A model generated the notes under the pieces. That model worked only from the letters and a program-made list of their open reading frames with translations. It was not told where the DNA came from and did not search any database. Positions 770 to 37,006 of a stretch of DNA of 64,000 bases are shown in pieces. Position 1 is the first letter of the stretch, and the number at the start of each line of letters is the position of its first letter. Position numbers and translations under genes: made by a program. Source of the DNA: Marinobacterium sediminicola (GTDB lineage: Bacteria; Pseudomonadota; Gammaproteobacteria; Pseudomonadales; Balneatricaceae). Where the stretch lies: the NCBI RefSeq assembly GCF_022343685.1, contig NZ_CP092123.1:558001-622000 (forward strand). Direction: 5' to 3'.

Positions 770-1803
770 TGTGAATACTAAACACCTTGTTCACGCAGCT
801 TCGGTATTCGAGACACCGGCGGTAGATTTCCGATACTGCCATGAGGGCGCTGTTTATTGTAGTGGTTGATCCAGTCTGTCAGCGCCCAGGCCCTTGATAT
901 GTCGTTTGCGTAGGGCACTGCATATGCCCACTCCCTGATCATTGTTTGTATAAATCGCTCCGCCTTGCCGTTCGTTCTGGGCGTGTATGGGCGCGTGTAT
1001 ACATGCTTGATCCCTTCCCGTTGTAAAACTGCATTGAACCGACGGGAACGATAGGCTGGACCGTTATCGGTCATCAGGCGTTTCACCTCTACACCTATTC
1101 CGCGGTAGGCCGCTAGAGCGTTTTCCAAAAAGCGCGTTGTGGTGCCTTGCTGCTCATCTGGTAGTACCCGGGCAAACGCCCAGCGGCTGTGATCATCAAT
1201 ACAGATATGAACGCACTCATAACCCGCACCTCGGGTATTCTGGCGACGGTTGTTTGTCACGCGGTGGCCGGGCCTGTCGAAGCGAGGCAGCTTCTTGATA
1301 TCCATATGCAGCATGTCACCCGGCGCGGGGTGTTCGTAGCGCTGCGCAGGTTGCACCGGCTCCAGGTGTGAGGCTCGATTGAGCTTAAGTCGGCGCAGTA
1401 CAGCTGTCACTGTGGAGTAAGCCAGACTCAGTGCCTGTGCGATCTGCTTGGCAGTCCACTTGAGTGTCAGGCGCATCTTCTGAATCAGCTCAACCCACTG
1501 TTTCGGCATCTGCCTCGGTGAGGCGTGGGGACGGCTGGATGCTGACTCAAGACCAGCCTCACCTGCCTCTCGATAACGAGCAATCCACTTGTACACAGTG
1601 TGCGTGCTGATACCAAAAGTGCTGGCAATGTCTCGCACCGGCTGCCGCTTACGGAGGGCTCGATCAACGATCAGGGCTCGAATATGAGGCGTAGTTCGGG
1701 CATTCTTGTGAGGGTTGTTCATGTCGGTTGTTCTGTGCTGTTTGTTTGGCGATAACCAGCATCTCGAACTTAACCGGCGTGAACAACCTCCTTAGCACCC
1801 ACA
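770..1803 (-). mobile_element. complete IS481-family insertion sequence, 1034 bp
   Basis: The ends are exact. CCTAGG occurs at 764-769 and again at 1804-1809, matching the NCTAGN target preference and 6-bp duplication known for IS481. The terminal inverted repeats begin TGTG and share CTAA and TTGTTCACGC, with about 21 of 29 positions matching. A single transposase gene fills the element. Removing the element plus one CCTAGG restores an uninterrupted globin reading frame (SRLGQSM). The intact transposase and perfect duplication suggest a fairly recent insertion. Confidence 0.93.
778..1722 (-). CDS. IS481-family transposase
   Basis: This 314-residue DDE recombinase moves the surrounding element. 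An N-terminal helix-turn-helix region (about residues 12-110, with DIASTFGISTHTVYKWI) should bind the terminal repeats. The rve catalytic core (about 130-300) shows the three acidic positions in HMDIKKL, TDNGPAY and NGKAERF. Length and order are normal for the family and there is no frameshift, so it is probably functional. It lies in the same orientation as the interrupted dosC-like gene. Confidence 0.93.
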   Translation of the reverse strand: MNNPHKNARTTPHIRALIVDRALRKRQPVRDIASTFGISTHTVYKWIARYREAGEAGLESASSRPHASPRQMPKQWVELIQKMRLTLKWTAKQIAQALSLAYSTVTAVLRRLKLNRASHLEPVQPAQRYEHPAPGDMLHMDIKKLPRFDRPGHRVTNNRRQNTRGAGYECVHICIDDHSRWAFARVLPDEQQGTTTRFLENALAAYRGIGVEVKRLMTDNGPAYRSRRFNAVLQREGIKHVYTRPYTPRTNGKAERFIQTMIREWAYAVPYANDISRAWALTDWINHYNKQRPHGSIGNLPPVSRIPKLREQGV

Positions 1804-2003
1804 CCTAGGCGGCTTTGGACCTCGTCGTTGGATAAAAACTGTGACGCGCCGGGGTCGGATAGCATTTCCCGATAGAAGTGTTCGGATAGAGAAGCCGAGT
1901 GCTCCCGTGCAAAGTCGATGGCGAGCTGCCGTATATCAGGGGAGAAACGAAGGTTGATGGACGACCATTCTGAACACAGGTGCTCGGAAGAAATGCGAGG
2001 CAT
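1804..2003 (-). pseudogene. dosC-like globin-coupled diguanylate cyclase, 5' fragment
   Basis: This piece carries the ATG and the first 66 codons of the interrupted globin-coupled cyclase. FSPDIRQLAIDFAREH and LSEHFYREMLSD correspond to the first globin helices, and Tyr44 is in the place of the B-helix distal residue of DosC-type sensors. An AAAGGTG ribosome-binding site sits just upstream of ATG 2003. Translation now runs into the insertion element (GVGAKEVVHAG) and stops. The continuation is at 1-769. Confidence 0.85.
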
Positions 2004-2161
2004 GAGTACACCTTTGCCGGGAGGGGAAAATAATCGTGATTATACCATGACGGACGGCCAGGCTTTAACAGGCTGAACGGAAGGATAAAATGCTGTTTTG
2101 CAGCCTATCGAAGCGACTGTAAGGGGGGAGTAAGGGTTAGTACAGAATGTGCTCTTGCAAA

Positions 2162-2245
2162 CTTCGTCAAAGGCTTGAAGAAGTGGTACCCGCGGCCGGA
2201 CTCGAACCGGCACACCTGTTAGGGCAGGGGAATTTTGAACCCTCT
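2162..2245 (-). repeat. decayed tRNA-Leu 3' end: attachment-site remnant
   Basis: This is a direct repeat, about 84 bp with roughly ten mismatches, of the 3' half of the intact tRNA-Leu at 4873-4959 plus its 3' flank (CTTGAAGAAG). The anticodon stem, variable arm, T-arm (GGTTCGAGTCC) and CCA are recognisable. The 5' half is absent and the acceptor no longer pairs, so it cannot be a working tRNA. Its same-strand orientation is what integration into a tRNA gene leaves at the far end of an island. The rest of 2004-2433 holds no gene I can support. Confidence 0.8.
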
Positions 2246-2433
2246 AGCGCGCACGTCATGATCACCTTGAAAACCCATGCTTGGGCCGTTTTTGTCTGCC
2301 GGTCTCTTTCGGCTGGCCAGTTCGGCGATGCGTGAGAATTCAATCGCTTCTCCGTTACTATTGACTCCAAAGAAATACACAAAGAAGATGGGGGTTTTTA
2401 AGAACAATCCATAAGACTTAGGGGTGTAAGCTT

Positions 2434-4317
2434 GTGAAAAAAATCTTGAGATACGGGCAGCCTTTCCTGTATTTGCTGCTTTTGGGTTCCATCTCAGCTA
2501 AAGCTGAAGCTGCACTGCTGGTACAGTCGACATACTCCAGTAATATAACCAGTACCAGTGCTACGCTTAATATCAGAGTGCAGAACACCAGTGGCAGCAA
2601 CTCTGTTGATGGCGTAGCAATTGGTTGGGGTGGAAACTCGGGTACGCCTTACACTAATACGACATCTGGGCAGAATGTACCCCCAAATTCGACAATCACT
2701 ATATCAAGAAATATCTCTGGTCTCAGCTGTGGGCAAACATATTACTATGCCGCCAACTGGTTTGGCGTATTCTACGGCCCTGAGCAAACCTTCACTACAA
2801 CTGCCTGTGACTCTACTCCGCCAAATATAAATATTTCGGCTCAAGAAGTATCAAGTGGAGAATCCTCGGACGACAGCAGCATCCAGCTTACGTTCACGAC
2901 AAATGAACCGACTGTGAATTTTGATGCATCGGACGTGACAGTGGGTAATGGCTCAATCAACAGCTTCAGTGCAGTTTCATCCACTGTGTATACAGCCACC
3001 CTTGTTCCGAACTCTATTGGAACTGTCACTGTGTCCGTTTTGGCAGGTGTATTTACAGACGCCGCCAGTAATGGAAATACCGCTTCCAGCGTATTTGAGT
3101 GGAATTATGGATCTGACCCGACATCGAAAGCTGACGTTATTGATACATTGAATGCAACGACTCAGGCCGCCAATCGTTTCTACAGCAATAGTATCAAGCA
3201 TGCGAATGATAGGATGCAGTGGCTGCGAAGGAATCAGTCATCCGATTTGAAATCGGTTCAGGGGATTAATCTTCATGTTGATGATCCTTTGCTGCAACAG
3301 TTCATCAGTGGGGACCCGAAAGCGCTGAGCGCATTCTACCTTGCATCGAACACGACATCTCAGAGTGACAGTCGTCTGGGGGCCAATGTACAGACCATGG
3401 CTGATGTAGAGGCCCCTCCAATGGAGTTGGTCATTGCGAGCGCTCAAAACAGTTTTGGAAGGGTCAATCTGAACCCGACCGCCGGAAAAGTCCTTGGTGA
3501 CTGGTATCTTTGGACCGCAGGTAACCTGACACTTGCGAAAGACAAAAACTCAGTCACCAACCAGAGCAATGATACTGAAAGTATTAACCTGGCTATTGGT
3601 ATGGATAAGCAGCTGAGCAATGAATCGATTATCGGCTTCGCCTTGAATCTGGGGCAGGATGATATCGATGTTGGCAACGCTGGCAGTAACCTTGAATCCG
3701 ATAATGTCAGTTTGTCCATGTATACCAGTATTGACAGTCAAGAGCTGCCGCCAATTGATCTGGTATTGGGGTTGGGTCACATGAGCCTGGACTCAGTGCG
3801 AATGGATGGCACCCAGGTGCTGACCGGAAGCCGAAATGCCAATATGATCTTCGGTTCCGCATCCATCAGAAAAGAGCCGATCATCAAAGGGGACTTTTTG
3901 CTGACCCCCTACGCAGAAATAAATGCCGCTTATACAAGGCTGGGAAGCTATACAGAACAGGGTGGTGCACTTGCTCTGGAGTATGACAGACAGAATGTTA
4001 AGAATTACATGATATATCTGGGTGTGGATGCCGATTATAAGATGGCTGTGAATGGTGGTCAGCTCAGACCTTTTGCGAGGCTGGCTTACGGCTTGGATTT
4101 GTCTCCCGAGTCCAATGCTGATCTCCGCTATGTTGGTGATGCAACAGGCTATCGTTTGAAAGTTGATGCTTCCGCAACCTCCCATTGGATTTTCCGAGTT
4201 GGTGGGGATTATCAGCATAATAACGGGGTAGGCTCTTCGCTTGTGTACGAACGGACTCAATCCGTTAATTCCGGTCATGCTGACTCAATTCGTTTCAGGC
4301 TGGCCGTGCCCTTCTAA
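2434..4317 (+). CDS. Ig-domain outer membrane protein with autotransporter-type beta barrel
   Basis: The product has 627 residues and a GTG start preceded by AGGGGTG. A signal peptide (about 1-26, ending AKAEA) is followed by a fibronectin/Ig-like domain (about 28-125), a bacterial Ig-like domain (about 130-225, TNEPTVNFDASDV) and a helical linker. The C-terminal part (about 350-627) has alternating strands typical of autotransporter barrels and ends in RFRLAVPF, with the terminal Phe recognised by the BAM machinery. It is expected to sit in the outer membrane and display the small Ig head. The passenger is much shorter than in classical autotransporters. Function is unknown; adhesion is only a guess. 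It is island cargo. Confidence 0.85.
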   Translation: MKKILRYGQPFLYLLLLGSISAKAEAALLVQSTYSSNITSTSATLNIRVQNTSGSNSVDGVAIGWGGNSGTPYTNTTSGQNVPPNSTITISRNISGLSCGQTYYYAANWFGVFYGPEQTFTTTACDSTPPNINISAQEVSSGESSDDSSIQLTFTTNEPTVNFDASDVTVGNGSINSFSAVSSTVYTATLVPNSIGTVTVSVLAGVFTDAASNGNTASSVFEWNYGSDPTSKADVIDTLNATTQAANRFYSNSIKHANDRMQWLRRNQSSDLKSVQGINLHVDDPLLQQFISGDPKALSAFYLASNTTSQSDSRLGANVQTMADVEAPPMELVIASAQNSFGRVNLNPTAGKVLGDWYLWTAGNLTLAKDKNSVTNQSNDTESINLAIGMDKQLSNESIIGFALNLGQDDIDVGNAGSNLESDNVSLSMYTSIDSQELPPIDLVLGLGHMSLDSVRMDGTQVLTGSRNANMIFGSASIRKEPIIKGDFLLTPYAEINAAYTRLGSYTEQGGALALEYDRQNVKNYMIYLGVDADYKMAVNGGQLRPFARLAYGLDLSPESNADLRYVGDATGYRLKVDASATSHWIFRVGGDYQHNNGVGSSLVYERTQSVNSGHADSIRFRLAVPF

Positions 4318-32220: not shown

Positions 32221-32391
32221 GAGAGATTCCTGAAAAAAACTGACCTCATCATCCTTCATCGCCCCCGCCATGGTCAACCATGAAAAAAATGCACCGGTTG
32301 GCTGAAAATTAATCGCTTCAGAAGCAAGCTCTTGAGGCGCACAATCTCGCCACTTAATTAATATATTAACTATATGCCTTCCGGAGGTGCG

Positions 32392-33345
32392 ATGTTACAA
32401 CTTTTTCTCCTGACACTGCCGATCTTCATGCTGATCGCCATTGGCTACTTTGCGGTACGAGCCGGTTGGGTCAGCGAGTCGGCCTTGCCGTCACTGGGCA
32501 GCTATGTGATCAAGCTGGCATTGCCGGCTTTGCTGTTTCAGTCAATGGCATCACGTCCGGTGGAGGAATCGTTGAACTTTGACTACATCCGGGCCTATGC
32601 ACTGGGATCGGTCATATTGCTGCTGGGCGCCTTTGCGCTCAGTGCCAAGGTGCGTCAGGCCAGCTGTTGGGCGTCCGCCTTTCAGGGCCTCGGCTCCACT
32701 TTGGCCAACAGTGCCTTTATCGGTCTGGCGGTTGCCGGCGAACTGTTCGGCTCGGCGGCTGCGATAGCGGTGGCCTTGACCATGCTGGTGGACCTGCTGA
32801 TTCTGATTCCGTTAGGGCTGGTGCTGGCAGAGCTTTGCAGCGGGCAGGGCGGTGCAGGACGACGTGCTGTCCAGTTGTTTCGGCGTACGCTGGTGAATCC
32901 ACTGGTACTGGCCATTGCGGCTGGTCTGCTGGTGTCCTGGCTGGAAATCGGTTTGCCTGAAGCGCTGGACCAGGCAGTGGGCATGCTGGGCCGTTCCGCA
33001 CCCGCGGTGGCGCTCTTTGTCATTGGTGGCAGCCTGGTCGGCAGTTCGATCAAGGGACGGATGGTCGACATCGGCCAGATGACAGCATTCAAGCTGTTGC
33101 TGCACCCGGCCATCGTGGCGCTTGCCGTCTGGACCCTGCCGGACTTCGACCCCGCCATGCAGGCCATCGCCATCCTCATGGCAGCCATGCCCATGGCCAG
33201 TGTGCTGTCGTTGCTGGGGCAGCGGTACGGTCAGTCTGCAATCTGTACCCCGGCGCTGGTGGTTGCGACGGCCGTGTCTTTTGTCAGCATCAACCTGATT
33301 CTCTGGCTGCTGGGGCTGGCCGGCATGTTGCCTGTATCACTTTGA
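32392..33345 (+). CDS. AEC-family auxin efflux carrier-like transporter
   Basis: A 317-residue membrane protein with about ten helices. ATG 32392 follows GGAGG directly; an in-frame ATG at 32374 lies too close to the AT-rich promoter-like stretch TTAATTAATATATTAA. It contains LALPALLFQSMA, STLANSAFIGLAVAGELFG and PMASVLSLLGQRYG typical of AEC carriers. It differs from the copy at 29632 and lies on the other strand. The substrate is unknown. Its 3' end overlaps the convergent doxX-like gene by 9 bp. Confidence 0.87.
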   Translation: MLQLFLLTLPIFMLIAIGYFAVRAGWVSESALPSLGSYVIKLALPALLFQSMASRPVEESLNFDYIRAYALGSVILLLGAFALSAKVRQASCWASAFQGLGSTLANSAFIGLAVAGELFGSAAAIAVALTMLVDLLILIPLGLVLAELCSGQGGAGRRAVQLFRRTLVNPLVLAIAAGLLVSWLEIGLPEALDQAVGMLGRSAPAVALFVIGGSLVGSSIKGRMVDIGQMTAFKLLLHPAIVALAVWTLPDFDPAMQAIAILMAAMPMASVLSLLGQRYGQSAICTPALVVATAVSFVSINLILWLLGLAGMLPVSL

Positions 33346-33960
33346 CGGGGGGGTGATTCCCAGTCCTGTTTTTCTGGCCAGCCAGTAATCCAGGCTGGTA
33401 AAGCGGCCTGCACCGGTGAAAAACAGGCTCAGCAGCATGACAAAGTAGGTGGCTGCGAACTCGATGCCGTTGTTGAGAATGACGATGGAGCCGCGACCGG
33501 TCAGCCAATCGTAATGACCATGTTCCTGCAGGAGACTGCGGGCACGCTGCAAACGCTCGGCAGATTCCATCACCCGGTCATTGGCCAGCCAGCTCGAAGG
33601 GTCGGCAATTGCCAGCCAGCCGTTATCCCAGTGTACGGCGAGCGCGGCGACCAGCATGGTGATCATGAGCGGGATGCTGATCCAGCGCACTGCCAACCCA
33701 ATCAACAGCAGCAGGCCGCCGAAGAATTCGGTTCCGGCCGCCAACGCGGCCATCAGCTCGGGGAAGGGCAGGCCCAACCCCCACTCGGGGTTGCCGAACC
33801 AGGCAGCGGTATCCTCGAAATGGCTCAGCTTGTTCCAGCCCGCCTGGAGCATGACGGGCGCCAGATAAAGTCTGAGCAAAAGAGGAGCCAGGCCATCACC
33901 CCACTGAAGTTGTTGCAAGGCGCCTTGCAGGGGGCGGTAGGCAGTGGTCAGTCGATTCAT
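33337..33960 (-). CDS. hvfD: DoxX-family membrane protein of the RiPP operon (HvfD type)
   Basis: A 207-residue DoxX-like protein with about four helices (LLLRLYLAPVMLQAGWNKL, FFGGLLLLIGLAVRW, LMITMLVAALAVHW, FAATYFVMLLSLFF). It is the last gene of hvfABCD-type clusters. ATG 33960 is 4 nt from the hvfC stop, so coupling is likely. The role of DoxX in these clusters is not established; membrane redox support or export has been suggested for the family. Confidence 0.85.
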   Translation of the reverse strand: MNRLTTAYRPLQGALQQLQWGDGLAPLLLRLYLAPVMLQAGWNKLSHFEDTAAWFGNPEWGLGLPFPELMAALAAGTEFFGGLLLLIGLAVRWISIPLMITMLVAALAVHWDNGWLAIADPSSWLANDRVMESAERLQRARSLLQEHGHYDWLTGRGSIVILNNGIEFAATYFVMLLSLFFTGAGRFTSLDYWLARKTGLGITPPSK

Positions 33961-33964
33961 GGGG

Positions 33965-34771
33965 TTACCTCCCGGCAGGGGTTGGATTGCCTGCGGGGTG
34001 TGTGCCCAGCAGAATGTCGTCACGCATAAATTGCTGCATCAAATCCAGGCCGCCCTGAATGATGGTTTCGCGAGGGATCTGCGGCAATTCGTCAGCGATC
34101 AGCTCCAGTGCCCGAGCACCACTCAGGTCTGGGGTTTCGTTTAAAAGCCAAAGCAGGCGAGCGCTGAGGGCATTCAGTTCGATGAATTTCACCTTGTCTT
34201 CACGATTGCGATAGACCAGCAACCAGCTGGGCTGCTCGGCTGGTTGATCCGGACAGAAGCTGCTGTTGATGCGATGCACTGGCCACTGATAGCCGAATGA
34301 CCAGGCCAGCGGTGATACCACGGGGTGCTCCCGCAACAGTTGGTCGGGATTGATCGTTGCTGGTGGCCAGTCCATGAAGGGATCTTCCTCGGCGATATCC
34401 AGCGCCAGCTCGACCCATTCGTAGTGCAGCAACTCCTGCAGGAAGGGAGGGTCCTCCGGCTGGGGCCTGCGGGTGTTTTCCACATAGTCGCGATAGGCCA
34501 GTGCCAGATCCCTGAACAGTGGGCTCTTTGATCCGTACTCCTGCATGAAGCGACGAATCTCGGCTTGCCAGAAAGGGTCATCACACAGGCTGCGGTAGAC
34601 CGGAAAGGCGCCTTCCAGAAAACCGGCGATATTGTTGAAGAACAGCTCCACATACACCTGCATGCGGCGAGCCTCGATGCCCTCCGGCAGCGACAGCTCC
34701 GGGTTGCGTATCTGCTCGGCAAACCGCCGCTGGCAACGGATGAAGTCGGGTTCAGGCCGGGATACGTTCAT
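33965..34771 (-). CDS. hvfC: DUF2063 MNIO partner protein (HvfC type)
   Basis: A 268-residue protein with the N-terminal DUF2063 domain (about 8-105; [24 protein letters not shown]) and a C-terminal domain with [15 protein letters not shown] and an all-helical end. In bufferin and Hvf systems this protein binds the precursor leader and the DUF692 enzyme. It overlaps hvfB by 20 bp. Confidence 0.88.
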
Positions 34772-35606
34772 GCTGGCAGGCTCCCTGTTGCTGGCAGTGG
34801 CGGATCTGGCGGACTTCCTGCAGCAGTTCGTTTAGCGGTGGCAGGTTGAAGTCACGTTCGAGCAGCGTTGCCACTGGGCCGGTATGTGCGTAGGTCTTGG
34901 CCAGCAGTGACCAGACCGGGTCGATGATCGGCGCGCCGTGTGTGTCTATGAGAAGATCTTCGGCCTCCTGGTAATGACCAGCCATGTGCAGGCAGACCAC
35001 TCGCTCTGCAGGCAGAGCACGCATGAACGCTTCTGCATCGTAGCGATGGTTGATGCTGTTGACGTAGATGTTGTTGACGTCCAGCAGCAGGTCGCAGTCG
35101 GCCTCTTCCAGTACGGCATTAATGAATTCGATTTCGCTGAGATCTGTAGCAAGCGGAGTGTAGTAACTGACATTCTCGATAGCGATTCGGCGTTGCAGCC
35201 GATCCTGCACCTGACGAATACGCCGGGCGACATGATGGACCGCCTCTTCGGTAAAAGGGATCGGCATCAGATCGTAAAGATGAGCATGATCGCTGCAGCT
35301 GCTCAGGTGTTCGCTGTACAGCTTGATATCGTGTTGCTGCATAAACTTCCCGATGTTATCCACGAAGTCCATATCCAGCGCTTCAGGGCCTCCCAGGGAG
35401 AGGGACAAGCCGTGGGCGCTGAACGTATGGCGTTCGGTAAGCTCGCGAAACTGGCGTCCCAGGCGACCGCCCATCTGCATCCAGTTTTCGGGGGCAATCT
35501 CGAAAAAATCGACATCGCCAATATCCGCTTCAGGCAATTCTTTGAGCATGGGGCGTCTGAGGCCCAGACCGGAACCCTGAAGCGCTTGAAAGGTTGAGGT
35601 ACTCAT
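34752..35606 (-). CDS. hvfB: MNIO (DUF692) multinuclear iron oxidase (HvfB type)
   Basis: A 284-residue TIM-barrel enzyme of the DUF692 family. Metal-ligand motifs are present in order: [52 protein letters not shown] and DTHG. Family members oxidise Cys or other residues of ribosomal peptides; in bufferin systems cysteines become thiooxazole-type heterocycles. The start ATG 35606 (MSTSTFQ) is preferred to one 24 bp upstream. The Cys-rich precursor gene lies 55 bp upstream. Confidence 0.92.
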
Positions 35607-35661
35607 GCTGGCTCCTGTTGCAGGAACCACCGACTCCCATCAGGAGCCGGTGGTCGGGCTG

Positions 35662-35955
35662 TTACTGGTTACCACCACACTTGGCTTCACCACACTTGCC
35701 TTCTCGATCAGCCTTGGGGGCAGTATCGCCACCGCACTTGGCCTCACCGCATTTGCCCTCGGTATCAGCTTTAGGGGCAGTATCGCCGCCGCATTTGGCT
35801 TCGCCGCACTTGGCTTCGGCCAGCTGGGCATAGCCGTTGCTCAGAGGCTGGGCGGCAAAGGGGTTTTCGGCCGCAATGGCTCCGGACGTGGCGCCCAGAC
35901 CCAGCAGAAAAGCGGTGCCGACAGCAGCGATAGTGGGTTTTGTATGCTTGGACAT
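35662..35955 (-). CDS. hvfA: Cys-rich RiPP precursor with six ExKCG motifs (HvfA/bufferin type)
   Basis: A 97-residue precursor with a Sec signal peptide (about 1-28, ending GAIAA). From residue 47 onward it holds three tandem 19-residue units, each with a pair of ExKCG motifs (EAKCGEAKCGG or EGKCGEAKCGG), joined by DTAPKAD linkers. Cysteines are at 50, 55, 69, 74, 88 and 93, with no others. GAGG lies nine bases before ATG and a TATAAT box is at 35977-35982. The adjacent DUF692 enzyme is expected to modify the Cys residues, giving a periplasmic copper- or metal-binding peptide as in related systems. Confidence 0.93.
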   Translation of the reverse strand: MSKHTKPTIAAVGTAFLLGLGATSGAIAAENPFAAQPLSNGYAQLAEAKCGEAKCGGDTAPKADTEGKCGEAKCGGDTAPKADREGKCGEAKCGGNQ

Positions 35956-36084
35956 AATAGTTACCTCGTTGTTTTGATTATAGAAATCCGTGTCGGCCGG
36001 GCGTTTGCCTCGTGCCGTTCCGTTCGGTTCTGTACATCAGTCGGGTTTGCGAGCGGATCCTTACACAAAATTGAAAAAAATTCG

Positions 36085-36113
36085 GCACAAAAAAGCCCCT
36101 CCGAAGAGGGGCT
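36085..36113 (-). terminator. intrinsic terminator after the META lipoprotein gene
   Basis: Read on the minus strand, AGCCCCTC/GAGGGGCT forms an 8-bp stem with a TTCG loop followed by six T. It ends the lipoprotein transcript just before the hvf operon region. Confidence 0.88.
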
Positions 36114-36131
36114 GTGCTCGGGGCCTTTGGA

Positions 36132-36911
36132 CTATTTCAAATAGACAGCCTGAAAAGTTGCGCGCAGGTCGTTTGCGGGGTTGCTCAGATGGAGCTGCTC
36201 GCCGTCGATCGACCAGTTGACCTCGCCCTGCAACAGTTGCAGGAAACGGTGCTCGTAATCGATGCTGGGCACGCACGCGCGCATGGTGCCGGCAATGGGG
36301 CCAAAGTAGAGGCTGTTTTCTGTCTGTGTGAATTGCCCCATGAATTGGTTGCAGCCAGAAAACCCCTGGACGCGATCCCCCTGCTTGAGGATCAGGTGCG
36401 GCTCACGCTGTTCCTTATCCAGCTCGATCACTGCGCCATTCAAGGCAGTCAGTTTCCAGTAGGTGTTTTGCAACCTGGCCTGAGTGGACTCTTCGTTGAC
36501 CTTTTTCATCACCAGCATCAGATCCGTATCCTTCTCTCCGGCCAGGACCCTGTATCGGCTGTCGGTGATGAATAGCAGGCGGTCGTTATGGGTAATGCGA
36601 GCGCTGACGCTATAGCTGTGCCCTGGCTGAAGCTGATCAGCGGCTACCTTGAAGCTGAACGGGTAAGGTGGGCTGGCAATGTTGTCACGCACAACCCTGT
36701 CGAGTATGACCGCCGGCGCATCGGCACGGGATACATCCTGCAGGCGCACCTCAAGACGGCTGTCGGCGGGCACAATCATGCGTTCACGGTATAGGGCCTG
36801 CCCCGAAACTTCATGGCTTCGGTCGCCATACAATGTGCTGCATCCTGTCACCAGAATCGTGGCTGCAAGCATCAGACTCAGGTAACCTGAATGTGGGCGG
36901 ATAAAATGCAT
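36132..36911 (-). CDS. YbaY/META two-domain lipoprotein
   Basis: A 259-residue lipoprotein with lipobox VTGC (Cys about 24). The first domain (about 35-135; GQALYRERMIVPADSRLEVRL) is of the YbaY/YscW-type beta-sandwich class. The second (about 145-258; NTYWKLTALNG, FSGCNQFMGQF, TMRAC) is a META/HslJ domain. Related proteins occur in the envelope and are linked to stress or antibiotic tolerance. The function here is unknown. It is divergent from the lipid kinase gene. Confidence 0.85.
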   Translation of the reverse strand: MHFIRPHSGYLSLMLAATILVTGCSTLYGDRSHEVSGQALYRERMIVPADSRLEVRLQDVSRADAPAVILDRVVRDNIASPPYPFSFKVAADQLQPGHSYSVSARITHNDRLLFITDSRYRVLAGEKDTDLMLVMKKVNEESTQARLQNTYWKLTALNGAVIELDKEQREPHLILKQGDRVQGFSGCNQFMGQFTQTENSLYFGPIAGTMRACVPSIDYEHRFLQLLQGEVNWSIDGEQLHLSNPANDLRATFQAVYLK

Positions 36912-37006
36912 GTTGTGCTCTCCTTGAAAAATAACAGGGGTAGGACCCTGACCTCTGGAGAGGGTTCCCTGGAAGATCGATACCCGTTGTCATCAGGAGT
37001 ATAGCC

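Follow-up and report, generated by a model that had tools for sequence, protein, structure and literature searches.

The window analysed here is a 64,000-nucleotide stretch of the Marinobacterium sediminicola genome (G000:C1:558001-622000; the genome, G000, is a single contig of 3.55 Mb), and its main subject is an operon, hvfA-hvfB-hvfC-hvfX, for a ribosomally synthesized and post-translationally modified peptide (RiPP), together with a predicted promoter and a sigma factor gene encoded elsewhere in the chromosome. As the original prediction had it, the operon occupies one strand between 33337 and 35955, which was confirmed by the open reading frames (ORFs) and the sequence:

35662-35955, minus strand: hvfA, precursor peptide of 97 aa
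34752-35606, minus strand: hvfB, multinuclear non-heme iron-dependent oxidative enzyme (MNIO; DUF692), the peptide maturase, 284 aa
33965-34771, minus strand: hvfC, DUF2063/NGO1945_C partner protein (PME1, of RiPP recognition element (RRE) type), 268 aa
33337-33960, minus strand: hvfX, DoxX-family membrane protein, 207 aa

All four proteins exceeded the cut-offs of the respective NCBIfam models: HvfA (NF050137, 62.4 bits against 19.5), HvfB (NF003818, 432.4 against 360), HvfC (NF050145, 283.8 against 142), and HvfX (NF050144, 247.7 against 80); gene content and family membership were therefore directly demonstrated by sequence. The search with DUF692 and DUF2063 models that had been suggested as a check gave matches to both, the former as Pfam MbnB_TglH_ChrH (PF05114, formerly DUF692; 348.6 bits) and the latter as PF09836 (72.7 bits), with HvfC also matching PF22106 (NGO1945_C; 102.3 bits) and HvfX PF07681 (DoxX; 81 bits). 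Pfam and NCBIfam thus recovered the DUF692 enzyme, the DUF2063 protein and the DoxX protein named in the original prediction, and the family models upheld its reading of an MNIO/PME1 RiPP operon; the DoxX gene, labelled HvfD there, is HvfX in NCBIfam and in PMC13419390. The genome contains one MNIO match and two HvfA-model matches, both inside hvfA of this operon. An MNIO gene was found in 5 of 8 genomes of the genus (G000 counted) and the HvfA motif model matched in 38 of 116 family genomes; the closest named HvfB, in a search that may omit the window's own genome, was that of Marinobacterium halophilum (81% identical).

The genes had also been described as overlapping. This was correct for hvfB and hvfC (20 nt, the sole overlap within the operon if hvfX begins at its ATG), but hvfA and hvfB are separated by 55 nt with a strong hairpin inside, and hvfC and hvfX by 4 nt when hvfX is read from the ATG at 33960, an overlap arising only with an upstream GTG start. 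At its other end, hvfX shares its last 9 bp (33337-33345) with a Mem_trans (auxin-efflux-like) gene that converges on it from 32374-33345, so that the two meet tail to tail.

The six cysteines of HvfA (positions 50, 55, 69, 74, 88, and 93) each belong to an ExKCG motif (four EAKCG and two EGKCG) and form three dyads with a period of 19 residues. These positions, together with a 57-nt tandem repeat in the DNA (2.6 copies, score 198), agree with the three 19-residue units, two motifs each, read previously. The six-motif, three-pair layout is not new, because HvfA of Haemophilus influenzae, with three AEGKCGEGKCG motifs, has already been published with six sites (PMC13419390). A signal peptide is predicted by visual reading only: K, a hydrophobic core, and A-I-A immediately preceding AENPF. 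For comparison, a set of 60 precursors was assembled: duplicates (L001, L002, L086, and L087) were dropped, and then 24 of 84 sources (window counted) without a full precursor, of which 19 had no qualifying KCG ORF and five (L034, L045, L046, L076, and L079) had one but were truncated or did not pass the filter. hvfA starts were picked by rule; L059, which has masked bases, was kept, and one of two candidate precursors was used for each of L041 and L059. The segment NPF-x7-GY downstream of the signal peptide, for which a role in recognition by HvfC may be envisaged, was present in 57 of the 60, a count partly built in as regards NPF, since the filter demanded PF near the N-terminus. HvfA gave no Pfam match at E ≤ 0.001, so no DUF2282. 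An AlphaFold2 model from 19 sequences yielded no confident structure (predicted local distance difference test 45.8, predicted template modelling score 0.12), and a β-helix such as that modelled for a mid-size relative (PMC12452194) is not judgeable from it.

ExKCG repeats, an HvfB-type MNIO, and a DUF2063 (PME1/RRE) partner are among the features that define HvfA/oxazolin precursors (Buf_EGKCG, Lys-Cys captophorin), and by its sequence the operon is of the oxazolin/fontiphorin ("captophorin") class, not of bufferins proper. We regard it as very probable that this is the HvfABCX system of that class, with the chemistry, export, and sigma control proposed below. The earlier term "bufferin-type" was loose: HvfB remained below the cut-off of the bufferin maturase model (NF050167, 274.1 against 310), whereas it exceeded that of the HvfB model. 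The bufferins Buf1 and Buf2 (PMC12452194) share with this operon the enzyme superfamily, a PME1 partner, and, going by the visual reading of HvfA, a Sec signal peptide, but have another precursor family; given also that the precursor here matched HvfA and lacked a Pfam match such as DUF2282, a bufferin operon is extremely improbable. Among known systems, the oxazolin operon hvfABCX of nontypeable H. influenzae (PMC13419390) has the same four proteins and six motifs in three pairs, but HvfA of the window mixes EAKCG and EGKCG with its 19-residue period and did not reach the H. influenzae HvfA equivalog (NF050188, 36.7 against 95). The fontiphorin operon (fon) of Fontimonas thermophila (PMC13097082) similarly encodes a Lys-Cys precursor with EAKCGEGKCG pairs, an MNIO, and a PME1 protein, and differs in its seven sites, grouped two, three, and two. 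The bulbicupramide operon (mmr) of Microbulbifer (PMC12538549), for a copper chelator, is alike in its marine host, di-Cys cassettes, and MNIO plus DUF2063 proteins.

The nearest PDB sequence to HvfB was 3BWW (E 3.5e-68), followed more weakly by 8HCI and the MbnB chains of 7DZ9; HvfC matched 3DEE (E 3.4e-8). In an alignment of 85 HvfB proteins, 44 charged, polar, or aromatic positions were at least 97% identical, part of this conservation being built in because most of the sequences had been fetched by similarity to the HvfB of the window. H65, H100, E144, N145, D176, H187, H211, D221, H223, and E250 (conservation 0.99-1.00) presumably include the iron ligands. The 5-thiooxazole has been reported in fontiphorin, oxazolin, and gonophorin, with Cu bound; fontiphorin takes up to four Cu, and stochastic binding is suspected (PMC13097082). 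The family models and the published chemistry of these homologues support the cysteine modification and copper binding proposed originally, and by this analogy we assign with high confidence the following chemistry: while still in the cytoplasm, HvfA would have its six ExKCG cysteines oxidised to 5-thiooxazoles by HvfB, as an iron oxidase, together with its partner HvfC. The homologues further suggest that modified HvfA would leave via Sec and bind Cu(I) in the periplasm, with HvfX probably serving as an accessory membrane protein.

The control of the operon was approached through its upstream region, in which a block, TGTAAGGA...CGACT, proved to be conserved when five genomes from the genus were aligned. 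The two loci concerned are:

36039-36065, minus strand: TGTAAG-N16-CGACT, predicted to be a promoter for an extracytoplasmic function (ECF) sigma; it stands some 84 nt upstream of hvfA and is shared by five genomes from the genus
G000:C1:1183881-1184756 (L119:1501-2376): pair of genes for an ECF sigma (TIGR02943) and a 63-aa zinc anti-sigma, with an hvf-type site upstream, about 590 kb from the operon

TGTAA[GC]-N-CG[AT]C with a spacing of N16 was found in 10 of the 60 hvfA upstream regions, five of the ten from this genus; at the other spacings from 8 to 25 there was one match at N8 and one at N20, and shuffled upstreams gave a mean of 0.17 and a maximum of 2 (with a slightly looser form, GTAA[GC]). 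The strict form, TGTAASN16CGACT, has three copies in the genome: before hvfA, before the ECF sigma gene, and antisense inside a histidine-kinase-like ORF. The loose form (TGTAASN16CGWC) has 10 copies, of which only two, at hvfA and at the sigma gene, lie within 200 nt of an ORF of at least 90 aa on the same strand (at distances of 84 and 36 nt, respectively). Both also lie inside mechanical opposite-strand ORFs: over the hvfA site, one of 179 aa antisense to hvfA itself; over the sigma site, that of a helicase-like gene running divergently, in which the conserved region, as judged by eye, begins further off. The consensus of sigma-E of Neisseria, GTMAGBWTT and CGTCTAAH separated by 12-13 nt (operon NMB2140-2145; PMC2893595), was matched by the hvfA site at 8/9 positions of the -35 and 6/8 of the -10, and by the sigma-gene site at 8/9 and 5/8, each with a 12-nt spacer. 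A sigma-70 promoter scan of 33200-36200 found none.

The sigma protein scored 234.7 bits with TIGR02943 (cut-off 162.2) in a genome with 14 Sigma70_r4_2 matches, 12 of them over the cut-off. The following gene, read from its ATG, encodes a 63-aa zf-HC2 protein (36.3 bits) with C4 and H30-x3-C34-x2-C37, a C plus HxxxCxxC layout like that described for neisserial NMB2145 (PMC2893595). TIGR02943 was over the cut-off in 36 of the 116 family genomes, and the zinc anti-sigma pattern followed the sigma in all 36. Among the 38 family genomes bearing hvfA, the site upstream of this gene was present in 9 of 13 with the sigma and 0 of 25 without (Fisher 4.4e-6), an association demonstrated at the level of sequence; at spacings of 10-22 these genomes gave just two further matches, with N13 and N17, respectively, and the shuffle mean was 0.036 of 38. 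A role of the sigma in serving hvf is independently supported by its linkage, with the anti-sigma, to hvf in two genomes: hvfA-hvfB-hvfC-hvfX-sigma-anti-sigma in G078, overlapping from hvfB onward, and hvfA-hvfB-hvfC-sigma-anti-sigma in G086. (Of the two sigma genes that exceed the cut-off in G078, the one adjoining hvf was entered in the promoter-by-sigma table.) The Neisseria operon (gonophorin; PMC2893595, PMC13097082) has a DoxX gene and three more and likewise keeps rpoE and the zinc anti-sigma gene inside, as in G078 and G086, whereas the pair is unlinked in G000; in H. influenzae an ECF sigma and a small zinc anti-sigma are at a separate locus, as here (PMC7907618). The precursors of the hvf arrays with sigma and anti-sigma genes at L166:1632-5004 and L167:2079-4926, by eye, contain runs of at least three Cys motifs close together.

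In H. influenzae, the DoxX operon of PMC7907618, which by gene content (COG3767, COG3220, DUF2063) is hvf, is induced by hypochlorous acid (HOCl) and depends strongly on RpoE2, a sigma homologous to that of G000; the rpoE2 gene is located in the msrAB region, by locus tags separate from the doxX operon. The same source cites H2O2 as a neisserial inducer. By analogy with these systems and from the promoter sequence, we predict that hvf of the window is induced by oxidant or thiol stress, and not simply by copper: transcription would begin from the site at 36039-36065, driven by the TIGR02943-family ECF sigma encoded about 590 kb away, which would be freed when thiol or oxidant stress acts on the HxxxCxxC zinc anti-sigma. 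A copper-response measurement alone, as suggested originally, may mislead, because what the promoter indicates is control by an ECF sigma with a zinc anti-sigma, the type of pair that answers hypochlorite in H. influenzae.

A number of observations weigh against this interpretation. The reversed controls gave more copies in the genome than the sites themselves, six against three for the strict form and 56 against 10 for the loose form, i.e., no over-representation; copy number by itself is no evidence, and the placement of the sites is. HvfA and the sigma occurred together in 13 family genomes against approximately 11.8 expected, and this lack of enrichment makes their plain co-occurrence uninformative. 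The Fisher value overstates independence because the genomes are related, the nine positives belonging to four genera. The strict site was absent from 4 of the 13 genomes with the sigma (G035, G037, G078, and G105; G078 has a near match by eye, with one base changed in the -10) and stood before only 14 of the 36 sigma genes. The fit of the -10 is imperfect at both sites. In contrast to Neisseria and H. influenzae, no site was found near msrA: the single msrA of the genome had none in the 500 nt before its domain, and all 10 loose sites lay elsewhere. According to the abstract of PMC2893595, oxidants left neisserial sigma-E expression unaltered. The proteins of the homologous operon in Microbulbifer were undetected with or without copper, and its inducer was not found (PMC12538549).

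This last result also bears on the alternative that hvf serves copper homeostasis and responds to copper directly, in which case the sigma is irrelevant and the conserved block is another element. Such an operon was what the original prediction expected, and the homologous peptides do bind Cu(I), and bufferins are reported to boost growth under copper stress. We nevertheless consider it unlikely: the block is laid out like a -35 and a -10 element with N16 between them and is similar to the sigma-E consensus of Neisseria, the site was confined to sigma-bearing genomes among the 38 of the family, induction of the H. influenzae operon by HOCl requires RpoE2 (PMC7907618), and the Microbulbifer homologues were undetected under copper. 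Sigma control of hvf has been described before; that it extends to this lineage, and with an unlinked switch, was not found in the literature searched.

A separate question concerns the arrangement of the motifs, which had been proposed to form two-Cys sites in pairs. In the 60 precursors, every Cys past residue 35 (ExKCG or not) and ExKCG alone were counted. The former count gave 188 dyads, 113 single, 3 triple, and 1 quadruple among 305 runs, with 22 of 60 precursors consisting of dyads only and even and odd totals in 42 and 18, respectively; the latter gave 177 dyads, 79 single, and 4 triple among 260 runs, with 25 all-dyad precursors and odd totals in 21. The dyad period peaked at 17 (45 cases), followed by 16 (25 cases), and the 19 of the window was seen 7 times. 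Pairing is a tendency and not a rule, and strict pairing was rejected by the frequency of single runs (113/305 or 79/260). That each pair is one defined two-Cys copper site, giving three ordered sites per peptide, is in line with dyads being the commonest run and with the requirement of two repeats in the minimal in vitro substrate of FonBC (PMC13097082); single motifs and odd totals are, however, common, one congener (L082) has five motifs arranged 2-1-2, and the same source suspects that EGKCG peptides bind Cu stochastically and aggregate. We regard ordered sites as doubtful. The Cys numbers in five genomes of the genus (6, 5, 6, 8, and 6, window included) provide natural variants for probing pairwise versus stochastic metal binding. 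Two hvfA-like precursor genes were observed at one locus (L041:2532-2852 and L041:3156-3476). In the precursors of L020 and L021, an EF-hand-like segment, DADGDGSxTxxEF, was seen by eye within the motif array; precursors fused to EF-hand domains have been described (PMC12452194).

Two further features flank hvfA:

35613-35654, minus strand: two adjacent hairpins between hvfA and hvfB, with 13-bp and 5-bp stems and without a T-tract
36094-36113, minus strand: terminator-like hairpin, with an 8-pair stem and a T-run, between the upstream YscW/META gene and the hvf promoter

The hvfA-hvfB hairpin had a z of -4.36, and none of 200 shuffles folded equally well. It is not general, because z was below -2 in only 18 of 57 loci (window included; 57 of the 60 precursor loci were covered), and in 3 of 5 genomes within the genus (the window, L082, and L084, not L083 or L085). 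From its sequence, it is a possible transcript step-down or stability element, which could favour the output of precursor over enzyme. Rfam gave no match at the gathering score over 33000-37000. Elsewhere in the window, a transposase-like ORF (778-1722, minus strand) lies near a 627-aa outer-membrane-like protein (2434-4317, plus strand), both assigned by eye, in a dip of the G+C content (0.480 at 2001-4000).

As a tentative proposal, to which we give somewhat less than even weight, the thiooxazole peptide in marine gammaproteobacteria of this lineage may mainly be a defence against oxidant or thiol stress, by mopping up Cu(I) that reactive halogen or oxidant species release, or by scavenging those species; the switch governing it would consist of an ECF sigma and a zinc anti-sigma, would have a core regulon here of hardly more than its own gene pair plus hvf, and would have moved in or out of the hvf array during evolution of the family. 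The predicted two-locus circuit, consisting of the sigma/anti-sigma pair and one RiPP operon, would offer a compact setting in which copper buffering and oxidant defence can be told apart by experiment, and would connect the marine operons with the stress regulons of H. influenzae and Neisseria.

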